From positions 38,888,427 through 38,952,426 of the forward strand of contig OX031065.1 in assembly GCA_943736015.1 (NCBI GenBank): a stretch of DNA of 64,000 bases. The letters run 5' to 3'. How positions within the stretch are numbered: the stretch's first letter is position 1; each line of letters opens with the position of its first letter. The stretch comes from Tridacna crocea. Lineage: Eukaryota; Mollusca; Bivalvia; Cardiida; Cardiidae. The notes below the pieces were generated by a model, which saw only the letters and a program-made list of their open reading frames with translations, did no database searches and was not told the origin of the DNA. The position numbers and the translations under genes are program-made. Of this stretch, positions 29,352-63,973 are shown piece by piece.

Positions 29352-29580
29352 TTAACCCTTTACCTAATAAGGCATTTCTATGGTACCTCTAATTGATCCT
29401 AAATCACAGCAAGGATTAAATTTTTTTTTATGTGTAAATGACACCTTTTGATAGCATAGAAAACATTGTGACAAAAGGTGAAATTGCTCGTCATGAGCTA
29501 TTTCACCTTTTGCCACAATGTTTTCCAAAGGCTCCTTCAAGCAATGTATTGAAATGAGTATCTATGGAGTAAAGGGTTAA
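29352..29580. mobile_element. P1c MITE (variant hairpin)
   Basis: 229 bp, TTAA ends. Arms read TTGTGACAAAAGGTGAAATT and the paired complement, replacing the GGGAAAAGGAGAAA of P1. Tail contains GAGTATCTATGGAGTAAAGG. Sister copy at 51223-51453. Confidence 0.85.
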
Positions 29581-29842
29581 CAATAACTGTTGGACGTATA
29601 AGGTGAAGATCGCGTGGACTGTTGGTTTTGTATTCATAGAACCCTAGACTAATCGCCTCATCGAAAGTGCATTATCTAAAGCTCGTTGGCTATGAAACAA
29701 AGCAACAGAAAACAAATAAAACGAAATATTTATCTATTTTCTTTTCAAGTCATTACCTCTATTGACTTATTTTACCCAGTTGGGTATCACTGTCGGAAAC
29801 ATATGAACGAACTTTTTGTAATTTTGCCTCAATGGTTTCACA

Positions 29843-30078
29843 TTAATTGACCCAACTCTTTACCAAACAACACAACTTTTAGACGCCTCCAAATTTAGGT
29901 ATTTGCATATGACAAATGAAATGTGTATCAAATGACAGCTTGTGCCTTTGACAGGGTAAAAAACATTGTGGGAAAATGAGAAAATGCTGGTTACCAGCAT
30001 TTTCTCCTTTTCCCTCAATGTTTTCATATACGTTAAATCTTAAAATTGTAAAATTGGAATTGTGCATAAAGTGTTTTT
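29843..30078. mobile_element. P1 MITE
   Basis: CTCTTTACCAAACAACAC head and an intact centre AAATGCTGGTTACCAGCATT. Confidence 0.75.
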
Positions 30079-30329
30079 AACTGTCTCACTACCAATGGCC
30101 ACGCTAGGGAATTTTGCGGACGGCATTCTACCAGATGAAAACCATTCTGTGAAGTGAGTTATCTCACAGAATCACTCAAAGAATCAGCTCTTAAAAGACC
30201 TGATATGTCTGCGTCAATATTGCTTTCAGTCAAAATATAACATTTTTTTCTAGATAAAAGATGACACTCTTAGCTGAATACGAAATTTGACTGTGGATTA
30301 AGTCTTAAACAAAAAACTTCAGGCCCAGT

Positions 30330-30540
30330 CATGTTGAAAGCATTTGTAGACCTTTCCTAGTAAGGGTATCTGTTTTTGAGAGGGTAGGAATCATTGTAGA
30401 AAAGAGAAAAGGAGAAAATACTCTTCAAGTATTGTCTGCTTTTCTCAACTCGTAAACCATATGGTTTAGCCAATCAGAAATTGTGTTACTTTTGAGTTTA
30501 GAAAATTCTGTAGCATAAAACCAAGAACGGTCTTAAGGGT
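30330..30540. mobile_element. P1 relic next to a TTAGCCAATCAGAA repeat
   Basis: Decayed hairpin at about 30380-30440. It is followed by ACCATATGGTTTAGCCAATC-type sequence that recurs at about 33820, 53870, 57560 and 62060. Confidence 0.4.
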
Positions 30541-30665
30541 GGATGGTAAATCCGAGGCAAGTACTGCCGCCGAGTTTGTGGAAAGACCCAAAGCTGACAT
30601 CCGTTCTCGGGAATCGAACTTGGGTACGAATGGTTCCTAGGCCGACATTCCACCTCCCAATCACG
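30541..30665 (-). repeat. Possible tRNA-derived SINE
   Basis: Minus-strand B-box-like AGTTCGATTCCC at about 30615. The A box is weak. Confidence 0.4.
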
Positions 30666-30683
30666 GACACCACACAATGTATC

Positions 30684-30913
30684 TTTAGCTATTTACCAAA
30701 CGACAAAATTATAGGTTTGTCCAAACTCAAAGCATTTGCAGACGACAAAAGAGATGTGGCTAAAAAATTGAAAATTGTTTTTGGAAGGGTAGAAATCATT
30801 GTGGGAAAAGGAGAAAATGCTAGTTACCAGCATTTTCTCCTTTTCCCACAATGTTTTCAAAAGACTTCTACCCAAGGGTCGTTTAAAGTCGGCATTGTGT
30901 TGTAAAGGATTAA
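30684..30913 (-). mobile_element. P1 MITE, near full length
   Basis: Tail-first (GCATTTGCAGACGACAAAA), intact hairpin, TTAA at the right end. The 120-codon frame across it is a hairpin artefact. Confidence 0.85.
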
Positions 30914-31011
30914 TTGAGACATTTTACGTAATGATAAGCTTGGACCACTAAAGAAGAGGATCCAATCACCGGGGAAATCGTAATGTTCAAACGCTCGATT
31001 TTTCAATTTGT

Positions 31012-31225
31012 TTAACCCTTTACCACAAAATCCTGTGTTCCCGTTATCTATCGACCTCGGGGAAAACCCTTGAAAAATTTGTGGAAAAAAGGTCAAAATA
31101 CCGGTCCTTTTTCCACAGTGTTTATTACTCTATCGATGACAAATCCAATGTTTTGACCCGTATGGTCTACTACAAGTGCTCTCATTGTGCACAAGGTTAT
31201 ATTTTGTATTGCGGTAAACAGTTAA
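31012..31225 (+). mobile_element. P1 MITE with shortened hairpin
   Basis: TTAACCCTTTACCACAAAAT head. The centre is reduced to AAAATACCGGTCCTTTTTCC; TTAA at the right end. Confidence 0.65.
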
Positions 31226-31789
31226 TTGCAAATATCTCGGGAATAATTTCACTGAAAACAATTAAGTGCCGAAGGTGAATTGATTAGGTTCTTGCAACAT
31301 TTGGAGAGAGAAAGAAAAAAATCTGACCATTGCTTTGCGTATCTCAACATATAGTACTCTGATCATTGTTTTATACATTAATTTTGACATTATACAAAGC
31401 AAATCATGGCATAATCTCAATCAATTTTGCCCAAAGACCAACTGAATCATAAGTTAAACTAGTCCTCTGACATGCAGAAATTCTATCATTATCAAAATAT
31501 TTTGATTCAGGTCAACCTGCGCGGATTGTGCAGGCTTACATGGGCCGACCTGTTTGGTAGATGCGTTAGAGTACCTCTTCACAAAGCTTGATTTATATTT
31601 TTTAGCGCAGTTTTTTTTCTCACAGTGACTTCATAATATTACATTTCATGTGTCTATTTTTATAAATCTTACGGGTACAGAAATGTCGTAATTTAAGCTG
31701 GTGGGAATTATTTCCCCGTCACAGTGAATATTTTCCTCCTGCCGAAAATCTAGTGGCATTCGTTGACAAAATAATCAGAGGAAATATAA

Positions 31790-31966
31790 TATATAATTCA
31801 TTTCATCAGCTTGTGGTTAATATGAGGAAATATTTGCTTCAAAAGGGAGAGGTCCGCGAAAATACCTCGTGCCTTACGGCACTCGTTATTTCCGCATACC
31901 TTTCCATTTTTCGGCAAATATTTCCCCATATTAACCACAAGCTGATGAAAGAAATTCTATATATTT
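31790..31966. mobile_element. Foldback element (TCATCAGCTTGTGGTTAAT arms)
   Basis: Arms of about 48 bp separated by about 75 bp containing CTCGTGCCTTACGGCACTCG. A related sequence at about 40385-40740 is split by a P2 insertion. Confidence 0.75.
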
Positions 31967-32569
31967 TGCTGTATATTTTTGTAAAATCCGTTCTTATTAT
32001 CAAAAAAATCACAATGACTGATGATTGGAGTCATAATGGTTTGGTAAAGGTTTAAAGTACACACTTTACTCTTATTTCAGACGTATTGCGTAATATAAAA
32101 GCTGTGACTATTATAAAAGCGGATTCGATCACCGGGAGCATCAGATTGTTCTAGTCCCCGATTTTAGTGTTTAAATGCAAATATCTTGGGACTATTTTAT
32201 CTGAAAACAATTAACTGTCGCTGCCTAAAGGGAAATGCATCCTTTCATCATTTCGGGAAAAAAAATTAACCTGACCATTGTTTTTCGTATGTCATACAGT
32301 ATTCCGCCTGTTGATTTATGCAATGATTTTGACGTCATATTCTGTGTCTAATGTGTCGTTCACAGAGATGTGAAGGATATTCTTAGAAAAGAAGGTTTAT
32401 TGTATATTCGGGATGCATTATACGAAGCAAGTTGTCGCAAAATATGGATCAATTTTGCCTAAAAACTCGGCTGAACTTTGATATGCAGAATTTCATCGAA
32501 AGAAAACTGTTTTGAACCAAGTCAACCGGCAGAGGATATCAAAGGTTGGATATATTTTGGCAGATGCAT

Positions 32570-32800
32570 TTACCCATTTCCATACAATCCCTACTTATGA
32601 TGCCCCTGAGAAAGAAGCCTTTAGAAAAAAATTGTAGGTAAAGGAGAAAATGCAGGTAACCAGCATTTTTCCCCTTTTCACACAATGTTTTCTACCTTTC
32701 ATAAAACAAATTTCAAATTTCCAGTCACCTTTATTTTGTCGTCTGCAAATGCTTTCAATTTGGACCAGTCTAAAATATCGTTTTTTTGGTAATGAGTTAA
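32570..32800 (+). mobile_element. P1 MITE
   Basis: Complete head-hairpin-tail; ends TTGGTAATGAGTTAA. Confidence 0.85.
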
Positions 32801-32810
32801 AGCACGTTTT

Positions 32811-33038
32811 AACGGAATACGTATAGGGCCATCGCCTATGAATTTGTTGATTTTAAACGCGATGCTCAATTGTACGATGGTGTTAACGTGATATTACGAT
32901 GGCGAAAACGCGAAATAAAATAGTAGGCCTTCGATGATGATAGTGCAATATCATGAATATCATCGTGATTTCGTGTTATCACCATCTTACTATCGAGCTT
33001 CATGTTTCATAGGCGATGGCCCTCGCGGTATTCTGTTC
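32811..33038. mobile_element. Foldback MITE (GGGCCATCGCCTATGAA ends)
   Basis: 228 bp. Terminal inverted repeat ACGGAATACGTATAGGGCC then ATCGCCTATGAA; interior rich in ATCGTGAT-type words. It begins 10 bp after a P1 copy. Confidence 0.8.
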
Positions 33039-33980: not shown

Positions 33981-34899
33981 TCAAGAGTTATAAGTAATTG
34001 TTTTCATTGTACCAATATTTTCAGATTCATTTGACCCTCCGACAAAGTTACTAGATCTTCCAACCCCTTTGTTTAGTTTAATTGTAATTTTCAATGAATT
34101 AATTATTTTCTTCCACTCTTCCCGGAACATTGAGCCTCTTGCGAAATACAGAGCAAAATTAAATGTTAAATTACTAAATAACAACATAAATATTATGGCA
34201 TTTACAAGTTGATCGACTGCCTTTTCTTTTGCTGACAATTCGGGTGTTGAGTAAGCTTTTATGACCACATAGAAACAGTATGGACTCGTGAAAATAATGT
34301 AGAAAAAGCTAATTGCGAAAAGCATCTTCAGCGCCATCTTCTCTCGAGCTATGCTTACTTGATTGGTTATCGGGTAAACTTGTCGCTTCCTCCTAAACAG
34401 AATTGTTCCGATCACAGCATTTCCGGTTATAATGATGGCGATGGGAAACAAGTTGAAACATATAAGAACAATATAATTCCACGTAGTTTTGTAAAAATCT
34501 TCAAATTCTTCTGAAGCGAACACACATCTGGTGGAATTACTCGTATTTTGCACTTCCGATCCCAAAAATGTGTGAGAAAATAGAAGATGCGCTGTGAAAA
34601 ACTGAACCACTAGAACGGTTGCCATTGAAACCCAAACTGAAACCCGTGGTGTCAGTCTCAGTTTTGCCTTTATCGGGTACATTGTAAGCAACAACCGTTC
34701 GATGGTCAAATTGACCACTGTCCACGCTGATACTACGGCCGACGAATAACCGATCCAGTTGACAAACTTACAATGCATGTAAGAAAGTCCCAGGAAGTCA
34801 AGGTCGTATATATGTCTGTAAGAAAACCTCGGCAAGATTACCCATAAACCCAGGGTATCCGACACAGCCAGGACTAGCAGGTATACGCTTGTCGAATAT
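33981..34899 (-). CDS. GPCR copy B exon 2 (TM2 to C-terminus)
   Basis: 919 bp. Acceptor ATTTTACAG then A-TAT-TCG (…R-YSTSVYLLVLAVSD). Encodes TM2-TM7 and a Ser/Asn-rich cytoplasmic tail ending ITYNS. The GTG codon at 34865 is an internal Val, not a start. Confidence 0.9.
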
Positions 34900-37240: not shown

Positions 37241-37259
37241 AGCAAGACAGTCAAGGCTG

Positions 37260-41345: not shown

Positions 41346-41386
41346 GCACACCGAAAGAACTACCTTTACAGAAAAAAAAAAAGAGA

Positions 41387-43547: not shown

Positions 43548-46500
43548 CTGAAAAGAGACAGAAATAGTAATTTTTTCATGCTTACTGGTAATTTATCGAA
43601 AAATAACGGTGGTATGTATTTGTGATATTTCATGGTTACGAGCCTGAAATATAGCAATTTAACGAACTCTTCAATTAAAGGTGAAAACAGTTCTCACGCT
43701 CTAGTTACCTAGGTAAAATGCGTATGCCACTGCCATATGGTAATATGACGTAAATTAGAGAGGTCAACAGACTTCTCCAAAGAAGGAAAGCATGAAACAC
43801 AATGAAATACATGTAAGTCAAAGAGCATCTGGAGTAAGGTGTAACACGAGTATATGGTCACTAACTGTGAGCGCAGCATGATGAATGGTGTCGCACCACT
43901 GCGAAACTGCTTCCGGTTCGTTTTTTTTTTAGGCTTCCGGTTCGTAGTAGTAGTCAAAAGTGAAAATTTGCAGTAGAACACTTGTTACACTGTTGTATGG
44001 AGCTAAGATGGTTTGGTGGTATATAATTTAGATTTGCTTCAAATTTAGGGACTGGGGGACCATTTAGATGTGTTTTTGAGTGGACTATTTTGTGTCACTA
44101 GAGGAACAAAAAATCGGTGTCACGGGGGTGAACAGGTGTTTTTGAGAGGGAAAATTCTAGGGTGCCCATTGTTTTGAGATTTAGCGAAAAACGCAATCAG
44201 ACGACATGTTGTTTTTCATGCATTTTTTGAAGGACTATGGACTTACTTTAGACAGCAAGAGATGGGAAAGCAAAAGTATAAAGCGATCTATGAGGCTTCA
44301 AAGATGGCCAATTTCACTTTTTTTTTTCAATATGGCCCCAAACCAGTGGTGTGACACCGAATAGGAACACAATAATAAAACACTTACCGACCACATCTGT
44401 TTAACGACCGCTTTTGCCGTGCTCATTTTTGCTCTTTTCAAAGCAGCTACATTTGGCCCACTCCATGTAATGAATGCAAACTTCTGTCTTTTACTCATTT
44501 CGTCTCCAGTTTGTAATCGTAGATAGATGAATGCTCGCTCTTCATCTAAAACAAGAAAAAAAAACAAGAAAATCTTTCAAAGATAGGCGGAGTCATATGT
44601 ACCGTAATATAAATACTGAAACTGTTTTGTGCATTAAAAGAAAATATGAATATTGGTGTTACAAAAGTACCTGTAGTACAGGGAACCGCCGAATAAACAG
44701 GTCATCAATTTTGACCAATCGAAAGTTACTGTTTATTCATTCCAGTACATCAATTTCAATTAGTAGATCAAAAAGCACTGGTCACAACTCGGCCGATGCA
44801 ATGGCTACATCTAACTTGTTCTTTATCAAGGGGCTTTCCATTTTGAAATGATGCTTGTCACATGATTTTAAGCATGGCAGCGCCTGTAGAAATCGGTAAG
44901 CAACGGCAACAACAGCTACCGCTGAAATGTGCTTACAGAGTTGATAGATCAGGTTAAAAAATAAATGTGCCTGTACTGTTTGTCAACGGAAATGTATTTA
45001 AAAAGATTCTGATAAAAAAACTATTAATAGTGTTTTCATTTTTTAAAAGGAACCGCACGATGTACAGAGCGGTAAATTGGTGCATTTTTGGCGAAGAAAT
45101 GTCCCATGAAGATGTATACCCTTTTCCAAGCAAGCCCTGGGTTTTACGTGTCTGCAGTAAAAGTCTTTTGAAAACACTGTGGGAAAAGGAGAAATTGCTC
45201 GTAACGAGCAATTTCTCCTTTTCCAACAGTGTTTTCTACCCTTTTTGAGAACTTTCTACCACTTTCTCAAAATCTAAAATTGTCTTCTGCAAACTCTTTC
45301 AGAGTCCAAAATTTGTCGTTTGGGAAAGGGTTAAGCTAAATGATACAACCGAGTGACTTGATCACCAGATCACCCGAGCTATTCCGAATAATGTTAACTA
45401 CGTAGAAAACTAAATCTAAATTAGCCAAGTTCCGTTAAAATCAGACTAAGGCTTTCCTCCCCTGAAACTTCTGGTCAACATGGCATTATTTTTATTTGGT
45501 GGTTAGATTGTTGAAAATTTAAAGTGATTTAATAATTCTAGACACTTTTAAGCTCTCTTTAGATGTCCATCTAAAAAGTTTATGTTCATACCTTTATTAC
45601 TTATTTGTAAGGGGAGGTAATAATAATCTTCCGTTGAATTGAGGATATAGTGATTACAGAATTGAAAATGATAATTCTATGAAGGCAGAACAAACCTACA
45701 AAAGTGGCTCGGTTAAGATACTACAATAGTGATAAATTTCGATGATATCATAATAAAAATACTTAAACAAATTATTTTCCATAGTAAAATTTCAGTGGAG
45801 ATAAATCTTCCGCTTCGGGGTAGGAATACCTTAAATGTATCTACAAAAAGTATCGACGCAGTCATCACATGATAAGGGATGCCCAAAAAAAAATCCAGTT
45901 TGACATCTAACTGGATCATGAGGTAGAATAGCAATTAGACATGCAGAAAATTTGTCTATAGTAAACAGTTTCGGGTCAAGTTAGCCTGTGCAGACTGGAA
46001 AGGCTTAAATTGGTCGATACTTTTCGCAGATGTATGCATTGCACTCCATTTTTACGGAGCACGCCTCATTTTGAATTTAAAAAAAAAAGTACGAAAATGT
46101 CAGGAACATTTTATACGCCCCTCGACCCCCGTACTGATCGATTTTTATCTCTAAATTACACATTGACCCGTACATCCTGATTGTGAAGTGTAAACTCATT
46201 ATAGATCTGTGCGAATCTTAACTCTTTACTACACGACAATATTTCAGGCTTGCCCAAATTGAAATCTTTTGCAGACGACAAAAAAAATATGACTCAGAAA
46301 TAGAAATTAGATCTTTGAAAGGAGGGAAAACATGGTGGGAAAAGGGAGAAAATGCTGGGTACCAGCATTTTCTCCTTTTCCCACCACGTTTTCACAGGCT
46401 TCTTCCTTCGGATTGAAAAACTCGGGATTGTTTGGTTAAAGGTTAAGTTTTTTTTTTTTTTTGTTCACAGTGTAGGTCTAGATCAGACTGTGAGATCTGT

Positions 46501-49500: not shown

Positions 49501-52500
49501 AACAACTTGGTACTTGCTCAAATTAAAGGATTTGTCTGTGGAAAGAAAAAAAAGAGACATAGCAGGAAAGGAGAAAATGCTCCTTACAAGCAATTTCTCC
49601 TCTACCCGCAATGTTTTCACGCGCCTTCTGCCTCAGGGCAATAAAAAAGAGGGCTTATCTGGTATGAAGCAGATCCTGGACAATGAGCCACTTTAGAGGG
49701 ACATGGGTGTTTATTGTACACACTTGTGTTAGCAACACGTCGCCTTTGTCGGGGAAAATAAATTCTTTATAAAATTCCTCGTCTTCAACCGGCTCAAAGC
49801 ATGCATCCATTGCTGAATCTATCGCTTCAAAGAGCATGAAATTCGGCAGTTTCCGTACCTACATCTAATCTCGCCCGTAAAACGGCCGTTTACATTTGAA
49901 CTGCGAGTCACATGATCTTATACAATGGCGGGCCAATGTGATTCGTTTAGCAACGACTTAACGACCTCAATGAAGTTATTCACATCTGTGTATCTGTCGG
50001 TTAAAACTTCAATCGAAATTGATAAAAAAAAATTAATGTAGATCTACGAATTGTTTGTCGAAATATGGTTCGAAAGATTTCGATAGAAAATTAAAACCCG
50101 AGGTTTCTTTTGGAAGAGGAGCCTGACAATTTTCAGAACGGTATACCGGCGTATTTCCGAGTGTACCGATCTGCCGCATATCAATCCACTAGATACAGAC
50201 GAGGGATATGATGGCTACCATCACCCGTGATATGCCGAATGAGTCTGACTGCAGACAATTGTCCTGAAACTAGTTCAAGGACAACCTGAGTAACAGTTTT
50301 AACGCCGTACGACTGAAAACGCACGTACGTACAACCGTCAATCAAAAGAGGCGTGTCGAACTGAGCTTTCTGTCGTTCTTGTATGGCTCTTTCCACCAAT
50401 TCTTAGCTGTCAGTCAATTAGAAAGTAGGGCAAACTGTAAGTATTTATAGAATGCCATCTAGCGGGAGATAATGTTGAATGACCCACTCATTGAATGACG
50501 TCACTCGATATATAGAATGACGTCACTCTACATGGAATCCGAATGTCGCAGATTTTACCACGTTTTCCTTGCACTGTGTTTATAGAGCCGAATTCGCGTG
50601 TCATGTTAGAACAGAACAGAATAGAACAGAAATTTTAATAGTACATAAAGGCCTCTGGCCCAAAATACTTCTAAGTACAATATCTATTTACATAAAATGT
50701 TAATAGCCCTGGATGTTAAATATCAATATTTAGCCTTTCCCAAACGAATTGGGAATTGGGCTTTTACTATCGCTCAATTTATCGAGTAGAATAAGTGTAG
50801 CAATGCATTCCAAATGTGGCATGCAACAGGGGAAAAGGGGCATTCGAACATTTGCGTAATAGATCTATAGATATCGTTTCAGATTACTCTGCGCGGAATG
50901 TCTTTATGTAATTTTCTGTTTTGTGCAAGTCTACTGTAGCATAAAATCTAATGTAGTCGTAAAATACCGTCCCAGGGTAACATGCGTGGACTGCGCAGGG
51001 TGATCTGCAACGACACTTAACGCAAATATCCGAATGACCCTTTTCGTGTATTGTAAGACATATTGCAACGACAGCACGATCACTCATGAAGTCTTGGATC
51101 ATCAACTAACCAGCAAAAAAGAATTGCCTTGCCCAAGGAAGCTTCCACAGTGATTGGAGAATTACGTGCCATAATCTTAGAGAAGCTCCTTCCTTTCCGT
51201 AGACTAGTCTATATGGCATCTCTTAACACTTTACTCCATAGATACTCATTTCTACGCATTGCTTGGAGGAGCTTTTGGAAAACATTGTGGCAAAAAGTGA
51301 AATTGCTCGTCACGAGAAATTTCACCTTTTGTCACAATGTTTTCTATGCTATCAAAAGGTGTCATATATACACATAAGAAACAGCTTCATCCTTGCTGTT
51401 ATTTAGGGTCAATAAGAGATACCATAGAAATGCCTTATGGGGTAAAGGGTTAAAATGACCCATCAAGTAAAAGTGTACACTGACATTCTCTGTATGAAAA
51501 GTGGTCCTTCTTATACAATCATTGTTGAATTATCAACTTAAACTGACCTGCACTATCGTTGATCTGTTTTCATCTAATTGATGTGCAGATTACCCAGATG
51601 GTCCCTTTTTGAGTGATGGGTCACGAATAATAAGAGAGAGACAAAGTCATCTAAAATATGTGTTCAGTGCCTGCTTGCTGCGCTTTGACACACAAAAAAA
51701 ACCTTGTTATCTTACATTAAATATTTTCATACTTAAGTGTGAACTTCCTGAGCGGACTCGCACATGTTAAACTTATATTTCCGTTGTACTAAAACTTCAG
51801 ACCTTCAGAACCAGTTATAAGATATGGCATGTACTCGTAAAATTCCGTCTCGGATAAGCCTGCACGGTCATGAAAGGGTTTAACGATTAAACAATGGTTA
51901 AAACATCATTCACGATAACTTTTCCATATCACCTGTAGATAGTTTGTGTTGTACTATCATATGATATTTTTATCATTTTGTCAATAGATACAGCTGATTA
52001 CAAAGTTTTTGATAAAATTTGAGCTTATTCATTCTATTCCCCATAGAAAATTAGGTGTAACTATGTCAGGAAGGGGTGTCCCTGGGCAAGGGTCTGTAAA
52101 GCTTAGGCCTGGTATAATGAGAAACCCAGAAAGTACATGAAAGAGTGACCTAAAGCTGTATACAGCCTTATAGATCTACACAGGATCGCTCTAGTATGGC
52201 TAATGTATGGCTAAAAGGGCTAAATAATACAGGTCTAGAATATATGGTAAAAAGAAGAACATTTTCAACCTTTCCTCGATAAAAGACCAAGTAAAAGATG
52301 AGCTCTCTGTAACAGGGTTAAATGGTAGCCCTAGATCTTATGGTAAGTACCAAAAAGATTTCTAAAATAAGTCACCATAGAAGCCAATGTCAAACTTGTG
52401 ACTCTTGGAATGGGATCAAAACTTGACCTGTAATATAAGCCCTCATGGTAGACTTCCACTAGATATTATAAAGCTAAATACAAAAACTTTTACTTAAGAA

Positions 52501-55500
52501 TAATTTAGATTTGAATTTACCCAAATTACTATCCTTTGAAACCCTAGAATATTCAACACGACATTAAATGAGATTGAGAACAGTGTAGATCAAGATCAGA
52601 CAGCAACGAACGTGCATGCTGATTTTGAATCTACACTGCTGGATGTTGTTTGAGACATCCAACCTTTACACGATCTAACAAGTGTAACAGTGTTTGTCTC
52701 TACAAACGAAAAAAGGTCCATACAATTAGTACACCATTCTAGAGCTTAATGTACCCACAATTCGATTTTATCTGTTTGACATACATGTAATTATATACCC
52801 ATATCAACATTAATTGCATTTATTGCAGGCTACGGTCAGTAAGGGCATCAAGCCATGGCCGTTTGTCCTACCTACCCTTTTTCTATAAAACATGGTATCC
52901 TCTTCATAGAAATATTTAATTTAATTAGAATAATCTGTGTACATGAGCTTTAGATCGACGGTACAACTGCCTTCCACAAGTGTAATCCTGTGATATGTAA
53001 CACAGGAACTTGGGTGTACATTTTGATGGTAGTCTGATCTTGGCCTACACTGGTCGCAAACCCAAGTATACATGTCGTTGTAACAGGCGTTTTATAGTGT
53101 ACAAAAGTATAAAGATATGAAAAATACTCTGGCAAAAGGGGGCTTACTGCATCGCCGCGACCCATGATATTAATCTTTTGGCTGCTAAGCGCGACCAACC
53201 GACCTTTTCTCGGACAGAGTAGATCAAGATAAGACTGCACAGATCGTGCAGTCTGATCTTTGATCTACACTTTCCGATAGGGAGATATTATTCCCCAAAA
53301 CATAACCGTGTAACAACGATATTTGGGTTGTTACTATGGTATTAAAATTTAATTCTAGTTATACAGCAGGATAAGGCTTAATCAAAGTTAGTATACAATT
53401 GTAGATCCATACAGTTCATTTTCAATAACGACAGACTTAATCCTGAAGTAGAATGGTCTTTTGACATGAGGAAAATTGACCGTTAGCAAAATGTTTCGAT
53501 CCAGGTCAGCCTGCCGCGCAGGCTGACCTGGATCGATACATTGTGCAAAGTCCCCTTTTTTACAGAGAATGATTCATACATTTTGGGTATAATGTGAATA
53601 AACCAAAGTGTATCGTAAATGATCCGTTATTCTGTTGGAACAAACCTTTTAACTGTGCTGTTATGTCATCAAAATTTTCTCCAGAACAATCGTAACTTAT
53701 TACGTCTTCGTTGTTATACTTCAAAAAGCACCTACAAAACGATAAAAGAACATTAATGGTGATTATACCGTAACAGAGACATGGTAAGACCGAATTCACC
53801 AAACACTGTTTAGAACTTTCTTAGTCTTATTCTCGATAATCTTCTAAATTTGAAAGTAACTCAAATTCTGACTGGCTAAACCATAAAGCAGAAGTTGTAT
53901 TACTTTCAGATTTAGAAAATCTTTGAGCAATGTTTAATTGTTTCTCAATGCAACCAAGAAAGGTTTTTTTTTCTTAAAAAGAAAACAAGATGGACGGCGT
54001 AAGTGAAATTTTAACTTCGTTGCAGTCGACTTAAAATTTTGACGATTACACAAATAGATTTTGTAATATTCAAGGGCATTGTGCAGGCTTTACGTGATCG
54101 AAACCACCAAGACAGCAGCGAAGAGTAGGTCAGAGCTTAATATAGAGGGAGTGACTTTGATTCTAAATTTAGAAATATCAACATTGCTTCACCAAAACCT
54201 AGATTGTGGGCACTCATTAGAATCTTCTCATCGAGGCTTTTCTAATGAGTATCCACAATATAGGGTTTGAAAGGGAAATACATGTAATAGATTTAGGATA
54301 CGATCACCACCCCATCCCCCTTTACCTGGATTCAGTAGAATGACATTAGACTCCGCAAAATACACCTGTTGGAAATTATTCTGCGGTTAACTGTGAGGAG
54401 GTATAATAAAAAATAACCTCGCCAGAAGTTGTTTCTTTTTTCCTAATTGTTTTGCATATTGATGAAACGTTAAATTTTCGATTACATAATATTGTTCAAG
54501 AATAGAACATGTCATGCAGCCCAAAATAATGTGTGCCAAAGTACGTACAGTAGGGGGTTTTATGGTAAGACTTAACACATTACCAAATGACAAAACTTTA
54601 GGTTTATTTGCATTTGACAAAATAAAAGTGACTGAAAATTTGAAACTTGTTTTGTGAAGGGTAGAAAACGTAGTCTCCATTTTCAATGAACCAAAAGCAA
54701 ACCCATATACAGGTCTGCCTAATAAATAAGATTTTATTACAAATAAGGAGAATTCGTTGGCTATAGTTGGCATTGATATAAGTAACGAGTTCACCCTTTA
54801 CCACACAATCTCGGGTTTAATGGCCTAAAAAAAGGCTTTTTAAAATACCTATTGTGGGAAAAGATAACCAGCATGCACTTTCGATCTCCTCTTTCCACAG
54901 AGTTTTCCATTCTAACGTAGAAGACAGATCCTATATTTTGAGTCACATTAAATCTATCGACTCCAAGTGCTTTTAAGTTAAGCCTAAAAACTTGTCGTTA
55001 AGTATAGAGTTAACCTATTATTACACAATGACGACTTTTAACGACCCTGAGGAAAAAACCTTCACAAAACATTGTAGGAAAAGGAGAAAATGCTGGTAAC
55101 CAGCATTTGCTCCTTTTCCCACAATTTTTTTTTTTATCCTATCAAAGCAAAAATTGCATCCTTTGAGCCACTTTAAAACTGTCGTCTATAAATACTTTTA
55201 ATTTGTACAGTCCTAACAATGTTGTCGTTTGGTAAAGAGCTGAAGAGCAGGAAAAAATAACTTGACTCTATCATAGATCCGGTATGTGGGGAGCCTGAAG
55301 TAAACTCAAGTGTCACATATTTTACATATAAGCCGGGCTCTAGGAAAATGGAGTCTGTTGTATCAACGTGATACGTTGTATTAACCTTATCATACTAAAT
55401 AACTAAAACGAAACTTTCAATTAGATGGTAAAATAATACAAAATTATGGTTCTTTTAATAATAACACCTTATCGAATAGTGTAGATCAAGATCAGACTGC

Positions 55501-58500: not shown

Positions 58501-61500
58501 TATTTTCTCCATTTCCAAAAAAAAAAAAAGAAATCCAAGAATGTTTTTTCTAGCATTGTCTCTGTCCCCAACAATGTTTTCAAAAGCCACGCCTATACGG
58601 ATTGTCAAAACTCGGAATGGTTAAAGATTTAACCCTTTACCAAACGGTTAGACTGGTCCAAATTGAAAGCATTTTACAGACGGCAAAATGAATGTGCCTA
58701 AAGAATTGAAATTTGTTTTAGGAAAGGAAGACAGCATTGTAGGAAAAGGAAGACAACATTGTAGGAAATATCTGCTAAATAAGACTAAGAACCCTTCCTC
58801 GAATGGTTGGTGGCCTCCTTTTCCCACAATGTTTTCAAAAAGGCTTCTGTCACAGGGATGTTAAAAGTCTGTATTGTGTGGTAAAGGGTTAAAAGGGTAG
58901 CTCAATATGTTCGAAAACAAAAACCAACGTAACAATAAATTACGGATGATTAGAGTGCACTATATACCCGTTAGTGTATACAATAAGTTCAGACCTACAA
59001 ATTAGGCCTACTGATAAAAATCACTGAAGTCCAGAATATGAGCGGACTAGTGAGTGAACTGCTTCACGTCGCTTTCAGCATTATTTCAGTCATATCACAG
59101 CGACAAATTACAAATACATGCAATTCCAAGTTTTCATGGGTGCTAGGCTAGCACTCTGTTCAATTTAAAGTCACTTTTCTGGGGACAATTCCACGAAAAG
59201 CCCATCGATTAAATAGAGAATCGGACCCAGGTCCCGCCACGGTTTTGAATCCTGCACGCATACCCATGATTTACACAGGACTTCTCAAATATGTTAGAAA
59301 GTCAGAAAAGATGTTATAGAGTCCTTGTTACTTACACTACACCTTTCACCACAATGTTTTCAAGTGTTGTACAAATCAGAGGAGTAAAGAGTTATGCAGT
59401 GCTGAAAATAGTTTCATTTTCTCTGCTATCTTTTGACCTATGTCGTGATTTTAAGTACGATAATGAGCAATCGACCCTTAACTTGACAACAAAATTTTAA
59501 TCAATGCAGTTTCAAAGGGTTTGCAGACGACAGATATGTATGACAGATTTGTATGACTAGAATGTCGCACATCATCATTTTCTCCTTTTCCCACAATGTT
59601 TCACAAAGGTCTTTAACCTCAGGTTAAGCCTAGAGTGGGAAAAAGAGAAACTGCTGGTTACCAGCGTTTTCCTTTTCCCGCAACTGTTTTCTAACTTTTG
59701 GGTCATCGTTTCTTTTTTCAAATACTTCTAGTTTATACAATTGAAAAAATGTTTCGCCTCGAAAAGGGGTTAAACTAAACGAAGAGGTACATATAGTATG
59801 TTGAGAGCCATATAGACGTTTAACCCATTACCACACAATCCCTACTTTTGACGCCCCTGAGAAAGAAGCCTTTAGAAAACATTGTGGGAAAAGGAGAAAA
59901 TGCTGGTAACCAGCATTTTCTCCTTTTCCCACAATGTTTTCTACCCTTCGCAAAACAAATTTCAATTTTTCAGTAACATTTATTTTGACATCTGCAAATG
60001 CTTTCAATTTGAACCAGTCTAAAATATTGTCGTTTGGTGATTGGTTAAATAAAAGTAACATTGTCCCTTATCCTCCTCAATGACTAAAATGAAATTTTCA
60101 ATTCGATAGCAAAAACGCATATATTCTTGTTTTAAATGTATGTTTGGGGGAATACCATCTCATTATCGTACAGTGTATATTCAAGATCAGACTGCACGTT
60201 CTGTGCAGTCTGATCTTAAATATACACTGTCCGATAAAGGTCAGTGAGCTGCACTTAACAGCCTAAGTGTTTAGGCAAAGGGGGCGTAGCACACGGGATC
60301 TCTCCTTTGTTCTTGTTTCCTTTTATAAACAGAATATCAACCCTTGTCAAAGTATAATTCGACTACACAGCGAGATCAAACTGCAAATGATTCAGGTCTC
60401 ATCCTCTTCAACACTTTTCGCTTATCTATTATGAATATTTGTCAAAACATACCCATATCTGTTATCTGTGTCGGTCAATACAATTCATATTCATGTACAT
60501 GTATACATTTATTTATGGGGATGAAGAACAGACGTAAATCCATAAACAGTATACAAGCTATTTTTAGAAAAAAAACCCTTTTGATATAAATGACAAAATT
60601 AAGAAATATTTGATAGAAAGGAGATTACCTGTTTTTGAACGGTGTAATGCAGAGAAATGGCTCTTCCCTACAAAAGGACCCATGGTTAATTTCTCTACGT
60701 AGAATAATGACCCGAGTCATTCCTCTACGAAGTGAAATGACTTCTGGGGTTATTTCTCTACGTAGAAAAAATGACCCGGGTCATTTTGTATAGGGGGAGG
60801 ATCATTTTTCTACATTACAACGGCACGGAAAATGAAAACTTGTGGGAACAGGAACAAGATTAGTTTGGGAAAACTGAGTGAGGACGTTAAATACGTAATT
60901 CCATTTGCACGGCATTACTAACGTACATGTACATAAGAAAGTTTCCGGTTTATGAATTTGACTCATTTTAAATAACGCTGTGGTGTCATGCGGTGCGTAC
61001 GTGGCTCTTTACCAAACGACAACTTTATAAACTGGTCTAAATAGAAAGTATTTGCAGAGGACTATTTAAACACTTGTTGTATGCAAGCATCTATGGGACA
61101 CTTTAAAGGTGCTTGCTTTAAAAATAAAGATGCAAGCTTTTAAATCTCTTTACTGCACAACAACATTTTAAAGTGGACCAAAGTGAAAGCATTTTTAGAG
61201 TATAAAATAAATTCAGCTTGAATGACGATATGGTTAATATAGACTGCTCATCCTTTAGAGGTGGTCTCTATGGCAGGTTATTATTTATTGCCAAAAAAAA
61301 ATGGTGAGATAGAATAGAAAACCTTGAGGGTAAAGAGTGAAATGTTGGTTTCCAGCAATTTCACCTTTTCCCACAATGTTTTCATAAGCCAATTTCCAAA
61401 GGGTAGTTAAAAGCCAGGATCTTACGGTAAAGGGTTTTTAAGTTATTTCCGTTCATTTCCGAATCGTTTTAAACACTTGGATTACGAAATAAGCGAAATG

Positions 61501-63973
61501 GACGTCAATCAACGAAAAGAGACTCAAAAAAATGTGATTAAGAGGCTTTTTAGTGGATGAACTATTGCATTTAGATGTCAGAAAATGTCAGACTTTAATC
61601 AGACTGCACATGCTGGGTTGTTTGATCCTGATCGGCACTCTCCTACACAGCAACAAAAAAGTTCAATGTGTAAAGAGTTCAAGAGAGAGGAAGTTAAGAT
61701 ATACAAGTCACAATTGCAATCCGATACCCTGTCCATCACAAGTCATAGCCAAATGGGACTTGAGAATCGTCCATAACGTAACAGATTCACATTACACCAG
61801 TCTAAGTCTTTACCACACAATCCCGATTTTAAACACCCCTGAGAAAGAAGCCTGTAGAAAACATTGTGGAAAAAGGAGAAAATGCTGGTAACCAGCAAAA
61901 TCTTTTCTACCGTGTTGGAAACAAATTTCAATTTTTGAGTTACATTTATTGTGTCGTCTGCAAGTGCTTTCAATTTGGACCAATCTAAAATTTTCCTATT
62001 AGGTAAAGGGTTGAATGATAAAATCTTTGATAGGTCAGAAAACGAGACAGAAAATGAGAAATTGTTTTTGGATTAGCGACTTGGAAATTGCGTTACTTTC
62101 AAACTTAGAAAAATACTTTATAGAATATGCTAATGAATGGTATTTAGAATTTAGTCATGCTTTTTGAAAAAGGTGCTTGAATGCATATGCAATCAATATT
62201 GACCTAGATTATCCTGCGCACACCGAACAGGCTAGCTTAACGCAGTGGACCTGTTATATATAGAAAACAGCTATTTCCACTAAAATATCATCCTTCAAAA
62301 TTTGCTAAGATTAAAAATGAATATTATTGTACTACTTTCACCGAGCTACTTTTTCATTTTTGTCCTTCCTGGAATTATCGTTTATAGATCTTAAACCACT
62401 CTATTCTCATTACAAAGAGATGTGATAATTACCTCCCTGTTCTGGAAACTAAGAAAAGTATCAACAGATAATTTGAAGATAGACATCAAAGGGATTTCTG
62501 TACGGTTAAAAATGTTCAAAAGTATTATATCTGTATAAATCTGTCTTTATCAACGGTCAAGAAATTTCGTGCCATGCTGCACTAGAAGAATTACGGGACC
62601 ACTATCTTATACTATTACCACACAATCTCTACTTTTGACGCCCCTGAGAAAGAAGCCTTTTGAAAACACTGTAGGAAAAGGAGAAAATGCTGGTAACCAG
62701 CATTTTCTCCTTTTTCCCACAGTGTTTTCTACCCTTCCCAGAACAAATTTCAATTTTTCAGTCACCTTTATTTTGTCGTCTGCAAATGCTTTCAATTTAA
62801 ACCAGTCTAAAATTTTGTCATGTGGTAAAGAGTTAAATTAAAGGTTTTTTTTGGGTTTTGGTCGATTTTCTGCATGCCCAATGACTATTCTTCCGCATGA
62901 TTCAGTCGATTAACAGACAACTTGGACGTTATGGATCCATGTTTATATGATGATGCATCATGCATAAGAGGCCTCCTTTTGCCAGAATGCAGCTCAATTT
63001 TTGATGAATACAGTTCTCTGTCCTCTGTGAGGGTTTTAATCCTTATCCGGCTAACTAACTTAAACTGAATTTTCGAATCGATATCAAAAACCCAAACATT
63101 GCTTTTTTCAAAGTTATGTCGAGGGGAGTTATATCTCTTTATGGGACAGTGTCATCGAAAATCAGCCTGGACGTTCTGTGCAGTCTGATCTTTGACAAAA
63201 CTGTCCGTAAAAGGTCATTGAGTCGGGGTTATCACCCAAAGGGTTAAAAAGTCGCTGCTTTTTTGTGATAGTGTTTGAGGAAAAGATAGTTTAACTTTTT
63301 ACCAAACGACAAAACTTTACACTTGTCAAAATTCAAAGGGTCTGCAGACGACAAAATAAACGCGAATTGAAAATTGTAACTTGACTTTAGAAGGGGTAGA
63401 AAATATTGTTGGAAAAGGAGAAAATGCTGGTTAACAGCATTTCCTCCTTTACCCACATTGTTTTCTATAAGCTTCTTTCTCAGCCTCGTCAAGAGTAGGG
63501 ATTGTGTGGTAATTGGCTAAAAGTGTGGATAGAATAATGAGTCTGATCACGTGTGACGTTGCAATTTATCATAGTTACGGCCTTTCCAGCCGCCGGCAGA
63601 CAAATGGATAGTCGCCAGTTGTAGCGGAAGAGTTGGCTTTTTATCGAGGTCTAAGAGTAAACGTCCACGACTGCTAAAAAATGTACACGGCTCATACTTC
63701 TCTAATAAAGTATATGTTCTGTTCTGTTCATAGTTTCAAAAATTCACTAGCAAATAGCGAACAGTGGAAATTCAAGATCAGACTGCTCATCATGCGCACT
63801 CTGATCCAGTTCGCTGTACACAAGAAGTGTTTAATTTACCACTGCCAGCGAAAGAGTTAAATCATTAATGAATTGACAAAAATAAATATCACTTACCAAT
63901 TGGTTGGATCATTGTCTTTCCTTACGGTCTCGTAAGCTTCTATTATCTTATCCTTATCGTCCACTTTTGCCAT
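43440..63973 (-). CDS. COTL1: Coactosin-like protein, complete gene span (4 coding exons)
   Basis: Gene-level entry; CDS is the complement of 43440-43547, 44388-44545, 53646-53731 and 63897-63973. The spliced product is 142 aa, the same length as human coactosin-like protein. It has a single ADF-H domain. Family knowledge: it binds F-actin in the cytoplasm without severing it and counteracts cofilin. Seen: Trp26 opening the first beta strand; the [12 protein letters not shown] block (residues 71-82), whose Lys76 aligns with the F-actin-binding Lys75 of the human protein; and the AGGANY signature near the C-terminus. All junctions are GT-AG and the reading frame closes exactly (intron phases 2, 1, 0). 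Introns, in transcript order, are about 10.2 kb, 9.1 kb and 0.84 kb; the first two are filled with MITEs and foldbacks. No clear AATAAA was found just downstream. Identification is confident. Confidence 0.95.
43548..44387 (-). other. Coactosin intron 3
   Basis: 840 bp, GT-AG. No repeat family recognised. A 90-codon frame on the same strand (43709-43981) has no support. Confidence 0.8.
44388..44545 (-). CDS. COTL1: Coactosin exon 3 (ADF-H core, actin-binding strand/helix)
   Basis: 158 bp. Acceptor TTGTTTTAG; donor TCG|GTAAGT in phase 0. Encodes the most diagnostic part: [40 protein letters not shown] and [11 protein letters not shown]. This aligns with human RLFAFVRFTTGDAMSKRSKF and the long helix after it. 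Confidence 0.96.
44546..45117 (-). other. Start of coactosin intron 2 nearest exon 3
   Basis: No repeat recognised. The 106-codon plus-strand frame at 44531-44851 partly overlaps exon 3 in antisense and has no support. Confidence 0.5.
45118..45334. mobile_element. P1b MITE (variant hairpin centre)
   Basis: Near-perfect hairpin with ATTGCTCGTAACGAGCAAT centre and CACTGTG/CAACAGTG arms instead of the usual AATGCTGGT and CATTGTG. Confidence 0.85.
45340..46217. other. No gene recognised (coactosin intron 2)
   Basis: AT-rich, with a GTTAGCCTGTGCAGACTGG hairpin repeat fragment at about 45970-46030. Confidence 0.45.
46218..46446 (-). mobile_element. P1 MITE with matched arm changes
   Basis: 229 bp with TTAA ends. 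Arms ACATGGTGGG and CCCACCACG where the family has ATTGTGGG/CCCACAAT. Confidence 0.85.
46570..46720 (+). repeat. tRNA-derived SINE with conserved core
   Basis: B box GGGTTCGATCCCTGGCT, then core TTGCGACAGGATTCATTCCT, the same core as in 27045-27185 (opposite strand). Confidence 0.7.
46832..47041. mobile_element. P3-type MITE with different ends
   Basis: 210 bp. Ends AACCCTTAAAGTGCTG and CAGCGCTTTAAGGGT; P3 palindrome AGATCGATTGCACGTTCTG near its right side. Confidence 0.75.
47163..47300. mobile_element. P3 palindrome, degraded
   Basis: GTAGATCTAGGATCAGACTG against CAGTCAGATCTTGATCTA. Confidence 0.55.
47362..47612 (+). mobile_element. P1 MITE with duplicated left arm
   Basis: The segment AAGATATTGAAACATTATAG plus about 20 bp is present twice in tandem and the right arm is absent. 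TTAA at both ends. Confidence 0.75.
47640..47760. mobile_element. P1 fragment with C-run
   Basis: AAGGGTACAACACTTTCAGG and AAAATGCTGGTCACC, then a C/CA-rich microsatellite at about 47720-47742. Confidence 0.45.
47827..47978. mobile_element. Foldback element, about 70-bp arms
   Basis: CTATCGTGGTTTATCGCTCA … and its complement; centre AATCCACGAGGGCGATA repeats inverted with a very short loop. Confidence 0.85.
48174..48452 (+). CDS. Orphan ORF of 92 codons in coactosin intron 2
   Basis: Reads [20 protein letters not shown]… to …[14 protein letters not shown]. It sits opposite to coactosin between a foldback (47827-47978) and a repeat copy (48680 on). No domain is recognised, and it may be spurious. 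Confidence 0.15.
   Translation: MFCYCLMVSCVKLYGRQRKCDSGYIIGALKLMNLPVDNGTIFFSLFTDQNLTPILTKIAAPMDDDNSFDTPINLSFKIEIQVMVLKRHLKAI
48680..48998 (+). repeat. Dispersed repeat D, copy 3 (split)
   Basis: Begins in the frame [26 protein letters not shown] then stop; this frame is open upstream to 48533. Interrupted at 48998 by about 1.44 kb of inserted DNA and resumes at about 50440-50475 (GTATTTATAGAATGCCATCT). Confidence 0.8.
49003..49100. mobile_element. Foldback (ATTGATCATATATTTCATT arms)
   Basis: 28-bp arms around an imperfect GGAGGCGAAGCCGACCGAC loop; forms the left end of the insertion into repeat D. Confidence 0.75.
49102..50442. mobile_element. Inserted element with perfect 25-bp terminal inverted repeats
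   Basis: Ends ACTTACAGTTTGCCCTACTT(TCTAA) at 49102-49126 and the exact complement at 50418-50442; 1.34 kb. Two minus-strand frames lie inside (50181-50399, [20 protein letters not shown]…; 49655-49837, [20 protein letters not shown]…), neither recognised. A P1 copy has inserted at 49418-49664. Confidence 0.7.
49418..49664 (-). mobile_element. P1 MITE nested in the 1.34-kb element
   Basis: TTAACCCTTTACCAAATAAC head; hairpin GGAGAAAATGCTCCTTAC with imperfect pairing. Confidence 0.7.
50814..51062. mobile_element. P2 palindromic MITE, decayed
   Basis: ATGTGGCATGCAACAGG end, GGGGCATTCGAACATTTGCG; inner hairpins eroded. Confidence 0.75.
51223..51453. mobile_element. P1c MITE (variant hairpin)
   Basis: Head TTAACACTTTACTCCATAG; arms TTGTGGCAAAAAGTGAAATT and the complement of TTTCACCTTTTGTCACAATG; opposite orientation to the copy at 29352-29580. 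Confidence 0.85.
51454..53145. other. No gene recognised (coactosin intron 2)
   Basis: Contains a short P3 palindrome (about 52575-52640, AGATCAAGATCAGACAGC) and a fragment of the TCGGATAAGCCTGCACGG repeat near 51850. Otherwise AT-rich. Confidence 0.45.
53170..53378. mobile_element. P3 palindromic MITE
   Basis: Runs from TGGCTGCTAAGCGCGACC to TTATACAGCAGGATAAGG; centre AGACTGCACAGATCGTGCAG is well paired. About 270 bp downstream of coactosin exon 2 in plus-strand numbering terms it lies inside intron 2. Confidence 0.75.
53490..53545. repeat. Short perfect hairpin (GATCCAGGTCAGCCTGC)
   Basis: CGATCCAGGTCAGCCTGC directly followed by its complement; a compact member of the GCCTGCGCAGGC hairpin group seen at 16815, 24497 and 34975. 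Confidence 0.7.
53646..53731 (-). CDS. COTL1: Coactosin exon 2
   Basis: 86 bp. Acceptor TTTTGTAG precedes the G that completes Trp26. The exon reads [20 protein letters not shown] and on to ITAQLK, matching the WVTFKYDG beta hairpin and the following helix of ADF-H/coactosin. It ends with one base of an Asp codon at AAAG|GTTTGT. Confidence 0.92.
53815..54560. other. No gene; one foldback
   Basis: A hairpin lies at about 54190-54268 (CTAGATTGTGGGCACTC against GAGTATCCACAATATAGG), and a TAGCCAGTCAGAATTTGAG-type repeat (complement) at about 53850-53950. Confidence 0.5.
54571..55242. mobile_element. Three P1 copies, two abutting at one TTAA
   Basis: A truncated tail-first copy at 54571-54670, then 54791-55013 (hairpin reduced), then 55010-55242 (good hairpin AAATGCTGGTAACCAGCATT). 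The last two share the TTAA at 55010-55013. Confidence 0.75.
55383..55562. mobile_element. P3 palindromic MITE
   Basis: Head TTATCATACTAAATAACT; perfect core AGATCAAGATCAGACTGCAC with its complement; tail TTAGCAGCCAAAGTGTTAAG. Confidence 0.85.
55790..56603 (+). repeat. Bivalve-type 'ACAAGAGGGCC' dispersed repeat
   Basis: Begins AACAAGAGGGCCGTGTATCG and ends CTTCGGCCAGTGGAGCTAAA. The 3' half has TCATCAAATTTGG and GGACGGACGCACGGATG stretches, familiar from molluscan genomes. A P1 head relic lies at about 55824-55885. Class unknown. Confidence 0.6.
56617..56904 (-). CDS. Orphan ORF of 95 codons in coactosin intron 1
   Basis: An ATG-started frame with balanced, protein-like composition ([20 protein letters not shown]… to …[13 protein letters not shown]). 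It is not part of any repeat family I recognise here. It lies on the same strand as coactosin but has no splice link to it. It may be chance, a decayed gene piece, or a nested exon. Confidence 0.2.
   Translation of the reverse strand: MDEDFPSFFVSSNRESVNSICITSHRTFVRRFHKYILRQYDIRHFYNNFHMIQKEIPSVAIDMMRLIENGDKRVGLLVKIILNDVYMRNSLAWFK
56940..57020. mobile_element. P3 palindrome, degraded
   Basis: TGCAGATCCAAGATCATTCT against CTGGTCTTGACCTATAG. Confidence 0.5.
57187..57410 (+). mobile_element. P1 MITE
   Basis: 224 bp, TTAACCCTTTACC and GGTAAAGGGTTAA ends match exactly; intact hairpin. Confidence 0.9.
57749..57836. mobile_element. P4 short hairpin element
   Basis: Same arms as 41387-41473, with an inner CTGCAGCTTG/CAAGCTGTAG extension that makes the stem nearly continuous. 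Confidence 0.85.
57864..57915 (+). repeat. (GGAT)n microsatellite
   Basis: About eleven GGAT units. The minus-strand frame across it reads His-Pro-Ser-Ile repeats and is an artefact. Confidence 0.9.
57916..58409. other. No gene recognised
   Basis: AT-rich with a G-run at about 58205-58216. Confidence 0.5.
58410..58892. mobile_element. Two adjacent P1 copies, one interrupted
   Basis: 58410-58626 has an A-run inside its right arm. 58629-58892 has TTAA ends but its centre is replaced by about 45 bp with ATAAGACTAAGAACCCTTCC, a sequence also found at about 57640-57670. Confidence 0.7.
59580..59775. mobile_element. P1 relic
   Basis: Fragmentary arms at 59580-59600 and hairpin AACTGCTGGTTACCAGCG at about 59650. 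Confidence 0.5.
59820..60048 (+). mobile_element. P1 MITE, best-preserved copy
   Basis: 229 bp, TTAA at both ends; 33-bp arms GAAAACATTGTGGGAAAAGG… pair without mismatch around one unpaired base. Confidence 0.92.
60065..60275. mobile_element. P3 palindromic MITE
   Basis: CCCTTATCCTCCTCAATGAC head; perfect core TCAAGATCAGACTGCACG / GTGCAGTCTGATCTT; tail AACAGCCTAAGTGTTTAGG. Confidence 0.85.
60639..60826. mobile_element. Second copy of the GACCCGGGTCAT palindromic element
   Basis: Ends ACGGTGTAATGCAGAG and CTACATTACAACGGC; inner ATGACCCGGGTCATT and CTCTACGTAGA words. Fewer modules than the copy at 4999-5275. Confidence 0.8.
61000..61440. mobile_element. Decayed P1 copies
   Basis: Tail pieces at about 61010-61060 and 61150-61210, and a P1/P1c-like hairpin at about 61318-61385 (TCCAGCAATTTCACC), ending CGGTAAAGGG. 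Confidence 0.5.
61806..62012 (+). mobile_element. P1 MITE missing most of the right arm
   Basis: TTTACCACACAATCCCGATTT head, left arm intact, centre AATGCTGGTAACCAGC, then jumps to the tail. Confidence 0.75.
62013..62611. other. No gene recognised (coactosin intron 1)
   Basis: AT-rich, with a GATTAGCGACTTGGAAATTG-type repeat fragment near 62070 and a short CAGGCTAGCTTAACG fragment near 62230. Confidence 0.4.
62612..62836 (+). mobile_element. P1 MITE with matched arm changes
   Basis: CACTGTAGG left arm with CCCACAGTG right arm (family: CATTGTGGG/CCCACAATG). TTAA at the right end. Confidence 0.88.
63042..63246. mobile_element. P3 palindromic MITE, decayed
   Basis: CCTTATCCGGCTAACTAAC head, broken core (GACGTTCTGTGCAGTCTGAT), tail ending AAAGGGTTAA. 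Confidence 0.65.
63291..63520 (-). mobile_element. P1 MITE
   Basis: TTAACTTTTTACCAAACGAC end, tail-first, hairpin AAATGCTGGTTAACAGCATT. Lies about 375 bp from coactosin exon 1. Confidence 0.85.
63760..63860. mobile_element. P3 palindrome, degraded
   Basis: AATTCAAGATCAGACTGC against CACTCTGATCCAG, then CAGCGAAAGAGTTAA. Within about 40 bp of the exon 1 donor. Confidence 0.5.
63897..63973 (-). CDS. COTL1: Coactosin exon 1 (initiator exon)
   Basis: Encodes 25 codons starting [20 protein letters not shown] and ends inside the Trp26 codon (TG) at donor GTAAGT. The start is the only ATG in frame and has a good context (GAAATGG). Only 27 bases of 5' leader lie inside the window, so the promoter is outside. 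Confidence 0.93.

Follow-up and report, generated by a model that had tools for sequence, protein, structure and literature searches.

We propose that source lineages of P1, a small repeat of the bivalve Tridacna crocea, conserve its long palindrome at the DNA level, probably because transposition requires it, and that rare templating of one arm by the other additionally gives rise to matched changes, in which both partners of a base pair are altered. We consider this two-part account fairly probable. The analysis drew on a 64,000-nucleotide stretch of DNA (the window; C10:38888427-38952426) in a genome of 1.05 Gb and 31 contigs, on a 264-kb sample composed of the window and twenty 10-kb stretches of contig C1, and on genome-wide counts of the exact palindrome core. 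Copies were compared in an alignment of 306 hairpin-bearing P1 elements, composed of 276 unselected copies and 30 baits chosen for an exact core. The baits are counted in the 306-copy variant tally, the k=6 carrier distances, the target-site tally, the source and outer-stem comparison, and the count of hairpin-poor copies; they are excluded from the arm-decay counts, the neighbor-sharing tests, the flank-distance pairs, the flank clusters, and the TIR pair table. Throughout, k denotes the distance of a pair from the palindrome center.

Structure, ends and abundance of P1

Searching the 264-kb sample with nhmmer recovered 335 P1 copies or fragments, 60 of them inside the window, which together occupy 21.8% of the bases. 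P1 is ~229 bp long (227 columns in the search model) and 155 of the 335 copies are near full length, as exemplified by a copy spanning model columns 1-227 at 27331..27557 (+; nhmmer score 226.2). Across the genome the 33-nt core is found 180,061 times without mismatch, a rate that predicts 45.3 occurrences in the 264-kb sample, where 41 were found. Extrapolating from these figures, we infer that the family exceeds 1 million copies or fragments.

The palindrome is composed of two 33-nt arms around a single base, centered on column 88, and lies off-center within the element, with ~54 columns on its left side and ~106 on its right. When a 71-nt version of the palindrome was compared with the window, 33 places matched at 45 or more positions (the wildcard center being scored as a match), and a 31-nt core allowing up to 3 mismatches gave 15 window matches versus 0 in 100 shuffles. 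The copy at 59821..60046 (+; nhmmer score 239.0) contains a perfect palindrome at 59873-59943, two arms of 35 nt around one base, which matches at 71/71 positions and folds fully into 34 pairs (z -15.2, DNA parameters). The hairpin of the main sub-family is represented by the copy at 5318..5517 (−; palindrome 5420-5490, identified by nhmmer and fold), a member of the largest flank cluster. Among the 306 aligned copies, 12 lack 20 or more hairpin columns, each to a different extent, and one copy is split. Another palindromic tandem unit, with ATGACCC and TACGTAGA motifs at 5034-5195 and 60689-60786, looks unrelated to P1, and a 220-bp unit at 14347-14784 is tandemly duplicated with 97% matches.

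P1 copies begin with CCC(T/A)TTACC and end with GGTAA(A/T)GRG, with TTAA on both sides. Among 147 near-full copies, a tally that includes bait copies, the left TTAA letters were found at frequencies of T 0.90, T 0.92, A 0.90, and A 1.0 and the right letters at T 0.97, T 0.97, A 0.90, and A 0.96; since the search model contains TAA and TTA, the search leaves just the outermost T (0.90) and A (0.96) unbiased. The left TIR begins CCCTTTACC or CCCATTACC and the right TIR is near-complementary, in agreement with the CC[C/T]T start used to recognize piggyBac-type ends (PMC2872659). The A-variant TIR deviates from this motif at its fourth base, and AmiPB4 is described as beginning CCCATT as well (PMC2872659). 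P1 is moreover small, uniform in size and devoid of coding capacity, as MITEs are. The window contains four open reading frames of at least 120 aa, and those at 30543-30905 and 54387-54794 overlap P1 copies; the latter had no Pfam match. Judged by its sequence, P1 is a putative non-autonomous DNA transposon (MITE) with piggyBac-type ends and a TTAA target. Assignment to a Kolobok/T2-type MITE, which would combine the TTAA target with AGGRR or RR termini according to the available text of PMC6004289, was rejected given the CCC...GGG termini of P1.

The piggyBac transposase family PF13843 has at least 118 matches in the genome, many with open frames, although fragments of a single copy may have been counted separately. 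Several of these matches lie on different contigs with the same score and open frames, suggesting recent activity of several families. None of the literature matches listed, most of them judged by their listing, described P1, and the palindrome letters matched no paper. Among known piggyBac-type MITEs, the coral CMITEs offer the nearest comparison. Elsewhere in the window, two uninterrupted and similar-looking ORFs at 15197-16072 (−) and 33981-34865 (−) match Pfam 7tm_1 (E 7.4e-19 and 1.8e-16), suggesting a local family of 7-transmembrane receptors in an animal genome.

Matched changes and the conservation of source lineages

It had been claimed from the window sequence that variant P1 copies change both arms together, and all five examples given for this claim bore it out (copies named by their starts: 45118 at k=3, 8, and 26; 62612 at k=26; 46218 at k=25; 23161 at k=22; and 29352 and 51223 at k=3, 8, 13, and 20). 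A matched change is present in 107 of the 306 aligned copies and in 103 of the 276 unselected ones. These changes concentrate at k=3, 8, 13, 20, and 26, where they are linked as haplotypes: P1c carries 3+8+13+20, a second group carries 26 alone, and a third carries 3+8+26. When ten double variants were tested for clustering by flank neighbors, the five at these diagnostic pairs clustered, a result reached in 0 of 1000 permutations, with carriers sharing neighbors at rates of 0.52-1.00 versus 0.06-0.09 by chance. The remaining five double variants with at least four carriers showed no flank-neighbor sharing. Amongst single-arm variants, 3 of 117 clustered by flank at p ≤ 0.01, where ~1 is expected by chance.

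Three of the five examples are thus inherited. The P1c copies at 29353..29579 (−; palindrome 29457-29527; nhmmer) and 51224..51452 (+; palindrome 51276-51346; nhmmer and fold), both matched at k=3, 8, 13, and 20, lie in a 16-copy P1c cluster. The copy at 45118..45333 (+; palindrome 45168-45238), whose CACTGTG and ATTGCTCGT arms are matched at k=3, 8, and 26, belongs to a five-copy '3+8+26' cluster with a perfect consensus hairpin. The copy at 62613..62835 (+; palindrome 62660-62730), with the k=26 state CACTGT/ACAGTG, lies inside the largest flank cluster; its nearest flank relative, L042:3040-2814, has the same k=26 pair, and k=26 carriers cluster by flank. The other two examples are not tied to a lineage: the matched k=25 change at 46219..46445 (−) is private to that copy among all 306, and the matched k=22 change (TGTAGG/CCTACA) at 23157..23323 (+) is carried by 8 of the 306 copies, with no flank neighbors in common among the 4 of these whose flanks were usable. 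Inherited sub-family substitution, which the original prediction had named as the finding that would count against it, therefore explains the P1c, 45118, and 62612 examples and leaves the remaining two, while matched changes recur in unrelated copies amongst those compared.

Source lineages differ little in their arms and much in their flanks. Changes common to members of a cluster occurred at 0.057-0.114 per site in flanks and at 0.030-0.071 in TIRs; in arms, at 0.023-0.035, they were two to three times rarer than in flanks. Pairwise, arm divergence was 0.44-0.60 of flank divergence for pairs more than 0.12 apart, and 0.27-0.91 for pairs less than 0.12 apart, which are few and distance-selected. 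The suggested check of arm against flank divergence thus came out with arms diverging less among lineages. P1c differs from the largest P1 cluster at 77 of 131 flank columns (96 if shuffled) and at 4 of 33 arm pairs, all matched, while for the '3+8+26' cluster the corresponding figures are 41 flank columns and 3 arm pairs, the latter again all matched. All four matched differences between P1c and P1 are complement swaps (GC>CG, AT>TA); arm decay consists mainly of GC>AT transitions. At each of three clustering thresholds, the consensus hairpin was perfect in all clusters of at least 4 copies; in one cluster of three copies the consensus is mismatched at k=3 and 6. Lineage-linked arm variants comprise 5 matched changes and 3 single ones with weak sharing (0.15-0.22); relative to 482:14,312 matched to single changes in the genome-wide counts below, this 5:3 ratio gives an odds ratio of ~49, a rough value given that the two sets were gathered differently. 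Amplified lineages thus carry palindromes better conserved than most of the element, and these patterns among aligned copies suggest that such lineages kept a symmetric, sequence-specific palindrome.

The TIR tips are as well conserved as the palindrome (identity to consensus 0.89 and 0.90, compared with 0.85-0.90 for the arms), and they too change in matched fashion. At TIR pair 7/221, 153 copies comprise 97 T-A, 26 A-T, 14 A-A, and 4 T-T, the rest being other combinations, so that 0.80 are paired versus 0.57 expected. Because the TIRs lie ~200 bp apart, matching can be selected for without any templating between arms, and we infer that these changes fit recognition of both ends by one protein. 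The joint change of the TIRs, together with conservation of the palindrome at the source level, also speaks for selection as the sole agent, such that doubles are inherited from many small lineages and the palindrome is restored by ordinary second mutations favored in transposition, with no templating. We find this explanation unlikely, for the carriers of the same double that could be compared were mutually distant (18/18 usable carriers at k=6, 3/3 at k=9, and 3/3 at k=11, described below), and a change private to one copy has not yet passed through selection for transposition.

Selection could also act on a transcript, with the stem serving as a small-RNA precursor or other structured RNA. 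The stem-loop is stable, though folded with DNA parameters, and matched changes are the classic sign of RNA structure; even so, we regard such a role as very improbable. There were 0 Rfam matches at gathering thresholds in the window, and arm mismatches in the 276 copies were about equally G.T and A.C (369 vs 404), a balance that does not point to the tolerance of wobble pairs expected of RNA. Of the five lineage-linked changes, moreover, four are GC>CG or AT>TA, with no G.U step. The claim that the hairpin is needed consequently survives in its DNA form, supported among source lineages by a conserved palindrome, matched differences, and diverged flanks, and finds little support in its RNA form, for which the near-equal mismatches and the changes that bypass G.U are unfavorable.

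Arm decay after insertion and coupling between arms

After insertion, arms decay largely one at a time. At the 28 non-diagnostic pairs, the 276 unselected copies carry 623 and 602 single-arm changes on the two arms, with 79 complementary and 80 non-complementary doubles. The leave-out expectation, which is built on the global consensus and leaves in some sub-family heterogeneity, was 68.5 and 92.0, respectively; the matched excess in this sample was not significant (ratio 1.15, CI 0.91-1.42), and six slid-register controls gave ratios of 0.65-0.96. Over all 33 pairs, once sub-family states were corrected by assigning a copy with either k=26 allele to that sub-family, we observed 89 complementary doubles versus 87.3 expected in the same copies, with the five diagnostic pairs yielding fewer than expected (10 vs 27.3). 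The expectation that decay would generally preserve pairing was therefore not upheld in the sample. Private changes within flank clusters were likewise mostly single-arm and occurred at 0.019-0.023 per site in arms versus 0.024-0.027 in flanks. This slight deficit in arms would be compatible with conversion between copies, in which whole hairpins move and bring matched states into unrelated flanks. We judge conversion to be a highly unlikely source of the matched changes, as P1c states remain with P1c flanks (neighbor sharing 1.00 at k=13 and 0.93 at k=20) and such transfer should carry single-arm and shifted doubles equally.

Genome-wide, we counted exact cores changed at both partners of a site (D), at opposite-arm partners of two sites (cross), or on one arm only (S). 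As copies differ in age, the cross count gives the doubles expected without coupling. The comparison used pairs of sites sharing one kind of change, G>A/C>T at k=6 and 12 and A>G/T>C at k=9 and 11, covering 4 of the 33 sites. At k=6 and 12, D was 133 and 174, cross 162, and S 5587 and 4702; at k=9 and 11, D was 24 and 151, cross 18, and S 870 and 3153. Expected doubles at k=6, 12, 9, and 11 were 96.2, 68.2, 2.5, and 32.6, giving observed to expected ratios of 1.38, 2.55, 9.66, and 4.63. Expressed as sqrt(Da*Db)/(cross/2), partner doubles exceeded shifted doubles 1.88-fold (1.55-2.29) at k=6/12 and 6.69-fold (4.19-12.32) at k=9/11, with similar heterogeneity factors for the two site pairs (2.22 and 2.36). 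By the algebra of the test, unequal rates on the two arms would raise the cross count, making the test conservative. Pooling the four sites, we observed 482 matched doubles versus 199.5 expected, an excess of 282 that corresponds to 2.0% of the 14,312 singles.

The genome-wide excess of paired changes that the original prediction called for was thus found at the four core sites tested. The excess varied by site and was smallest at k=6, the sole site with many carriers compared. At k=11, 151 copies carry the matched A>G change, the largest excess relative to singles (3.75%), which may point to a hot spot at this position or to a state inherited in part. The idea that the arms correct each other holds for a minority process, amounting to ~2% of single-arm changes at these sites, and does not hold as the general route; correction of most arm changes was rejected, given 14,312 singles versus 482 matched doubles.

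These counts weigh against inheritance combined with independent decay, according to which the five sub-family pairs suffice and all remaining doubles are chance. The 276-copy sample agrees with that explanation (79 vs 68.5 complementary and 80 vs 92.0 non-complementary doubles, and 89 vs 87.3 over all pairs once corrected), but the partner-over-shifted excess at both genome-wide site pairs, with the heterogeneity factors given above, renders it improbable. Long repeats and palindromes are difficult sequencing targets, and an assembly or polishing artefact at hairpins might be suspected on that ground; it would, however, have to place errors on exactly the two partners of a pair in copies that are unrelated and yet leave shifted doubles rare, and we consider it extremely unlikely.

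Carriers of the same matched double proved unrelated wherever compared (18 at k=6, 3 at k=9, and 3 at k=11). On C1-C3, 18 of 20 k=6 carriers had usable flanks, and the closest pair was 0.17 apart; the median nearest distance was 0.26, versus 0.145 (range 0.105-0.212) in random intact-core copies. Three of the 24 k=9 carriers and three of the 151 k=11 carriers were 0.28-0.49 apart, some pairs being measured over 46-78 columns. The flanks of L071 and L076 were too short for the nearest-copy search.

We also compared the outer stem (k=17-33 minus 20 and 26), which played no part in choosing carriers. In the 26 carriers, 357 pairs included 8 matched changes, 5 unmatched doubles, and 43 singles, compared with 2, 4, and 88 over 1089 pairs in 73 intact-core copies (Fisher p=0.005, matched vs single) and 1, 3, and 59 over 517 pairs in 35 one-change copies (p=0.011). 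Relative to 43 older copies with 2-3 core changes (8, 4, and 111 over 641 pairs), the enrichment was not significant (p=0.086). One copy, L046:2848-3062, is alone among the 306 in carrying a particular matched change of three bases. Both the outer-stem enrichment and the L046 tract fit arm copying in a single event, and an effect of age is also possible for the enrichment.

Copying between inverted-repeat arms by template switching makes partners agree in one event and may yield multi-base matched changes, as described in the available text of two studies (PMC8794818, PMC8604942). Those studies concern RNA genes or the coding DNA of yeast strains, whereas in P1 the 180,061 identical cores belong to a single genome and shifted positions provide a control. 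The excess of partner over shifted doubles expected from such switching is seen at both site pairs (1.88 and 6.69) and is not significant in the 276-copy sample.

A putative DNA site and its counterparts in known systems

In the account we favor, the palindrome would be a putative cis-acting DNA site for mobilization. It could, for example, be recognized through its two-fold symmetry by a dimeric transposase or host factor, or it could form a cruciform. Copies with a broken arm would rarely turn into sources. Matched changes would arise mainly when a polymerase switches template between arms (quasipalindrome correction), after which both partners agree in one step, and rare matched variants that are still mobile could found sub-families such as P1c. 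A stronger version, in which a selected palindromic DNA site for transposition evolves mainly by template switching between its arms, passing from one perfect palindrome to another with no mismatched intermediate, is conceivable, but we are inclined to doubt it.

Available descriptions of piggyBac ends make such a site plausible. The same 19-bp palindromic sequence is present at both ends, at unequal distances from the tips, and a transposase dimer binds it through its two cysteine-rich domains (PMC11707139). As piggyBac transposase dimers bind palindromic motifs, double-stranded palindromic DNA is a plausible binding site in P1, and the piggyBac sequence resembles the P1 palindrome as a model of a conserved double-stranded one (PMC11707139). 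The P1 palindrome differs in being 67 nt long, single, and nearer one end.

CMITEs of Acropora corals are, in the portions of PMC2872659 available, piggyBac-type MITEs of ~100 bp with about 1600 copies in A. millepora. Like P1, they are small and gene-less, with a TTAA target and, in several families, CCCTTTCCC-type ends (PMC2872659). They also share a conserved interior, a 75-base internal region in which families resemble one another more closely than at their ends and which, the authors speculate, matters for transposition (PMC2872659). A word search of that text for hairpin, palindrom, and secondary structure returned none. P1 differs from CMITEs in its length of ~229 bp, in making up ~22% of sampled DNA, and in that the part conserved in P1 is a long palindrome whose arms show matched changes. 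The REPINs of Pseudomonas, as far as the accessible text of PMC3116915 describes them, are likewise small, mobile, gene-less hairpins with compensatory changes; unlike P1, they are bacterial, consist of a pair of REP units, and occur in association with RAYT tyrosine transposases (PMC3116915).

Matched changes in a stem are usually taken as proof of a selected RNA structure, and P1 allows them to be apportioned, within one genome and against shifted positions as an internal control, among inheritance, chance, and a weak coupling of the arms. By giving a number for how often a change on one arm appears in the other, P1 adds a caution for covariation tests. It also adds, after the coral CMITEs, another piggyBac-type MITE with an unusually conserved interior, which points to an internal requirement for mobility. 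If the stronger version, with template switching as the main route, is true, the ~180,000 intact cores would constitute a natural mutation-accumulation experiment, largely free of selection, on arm copying in a eukaryote at ~2% of arm changes.
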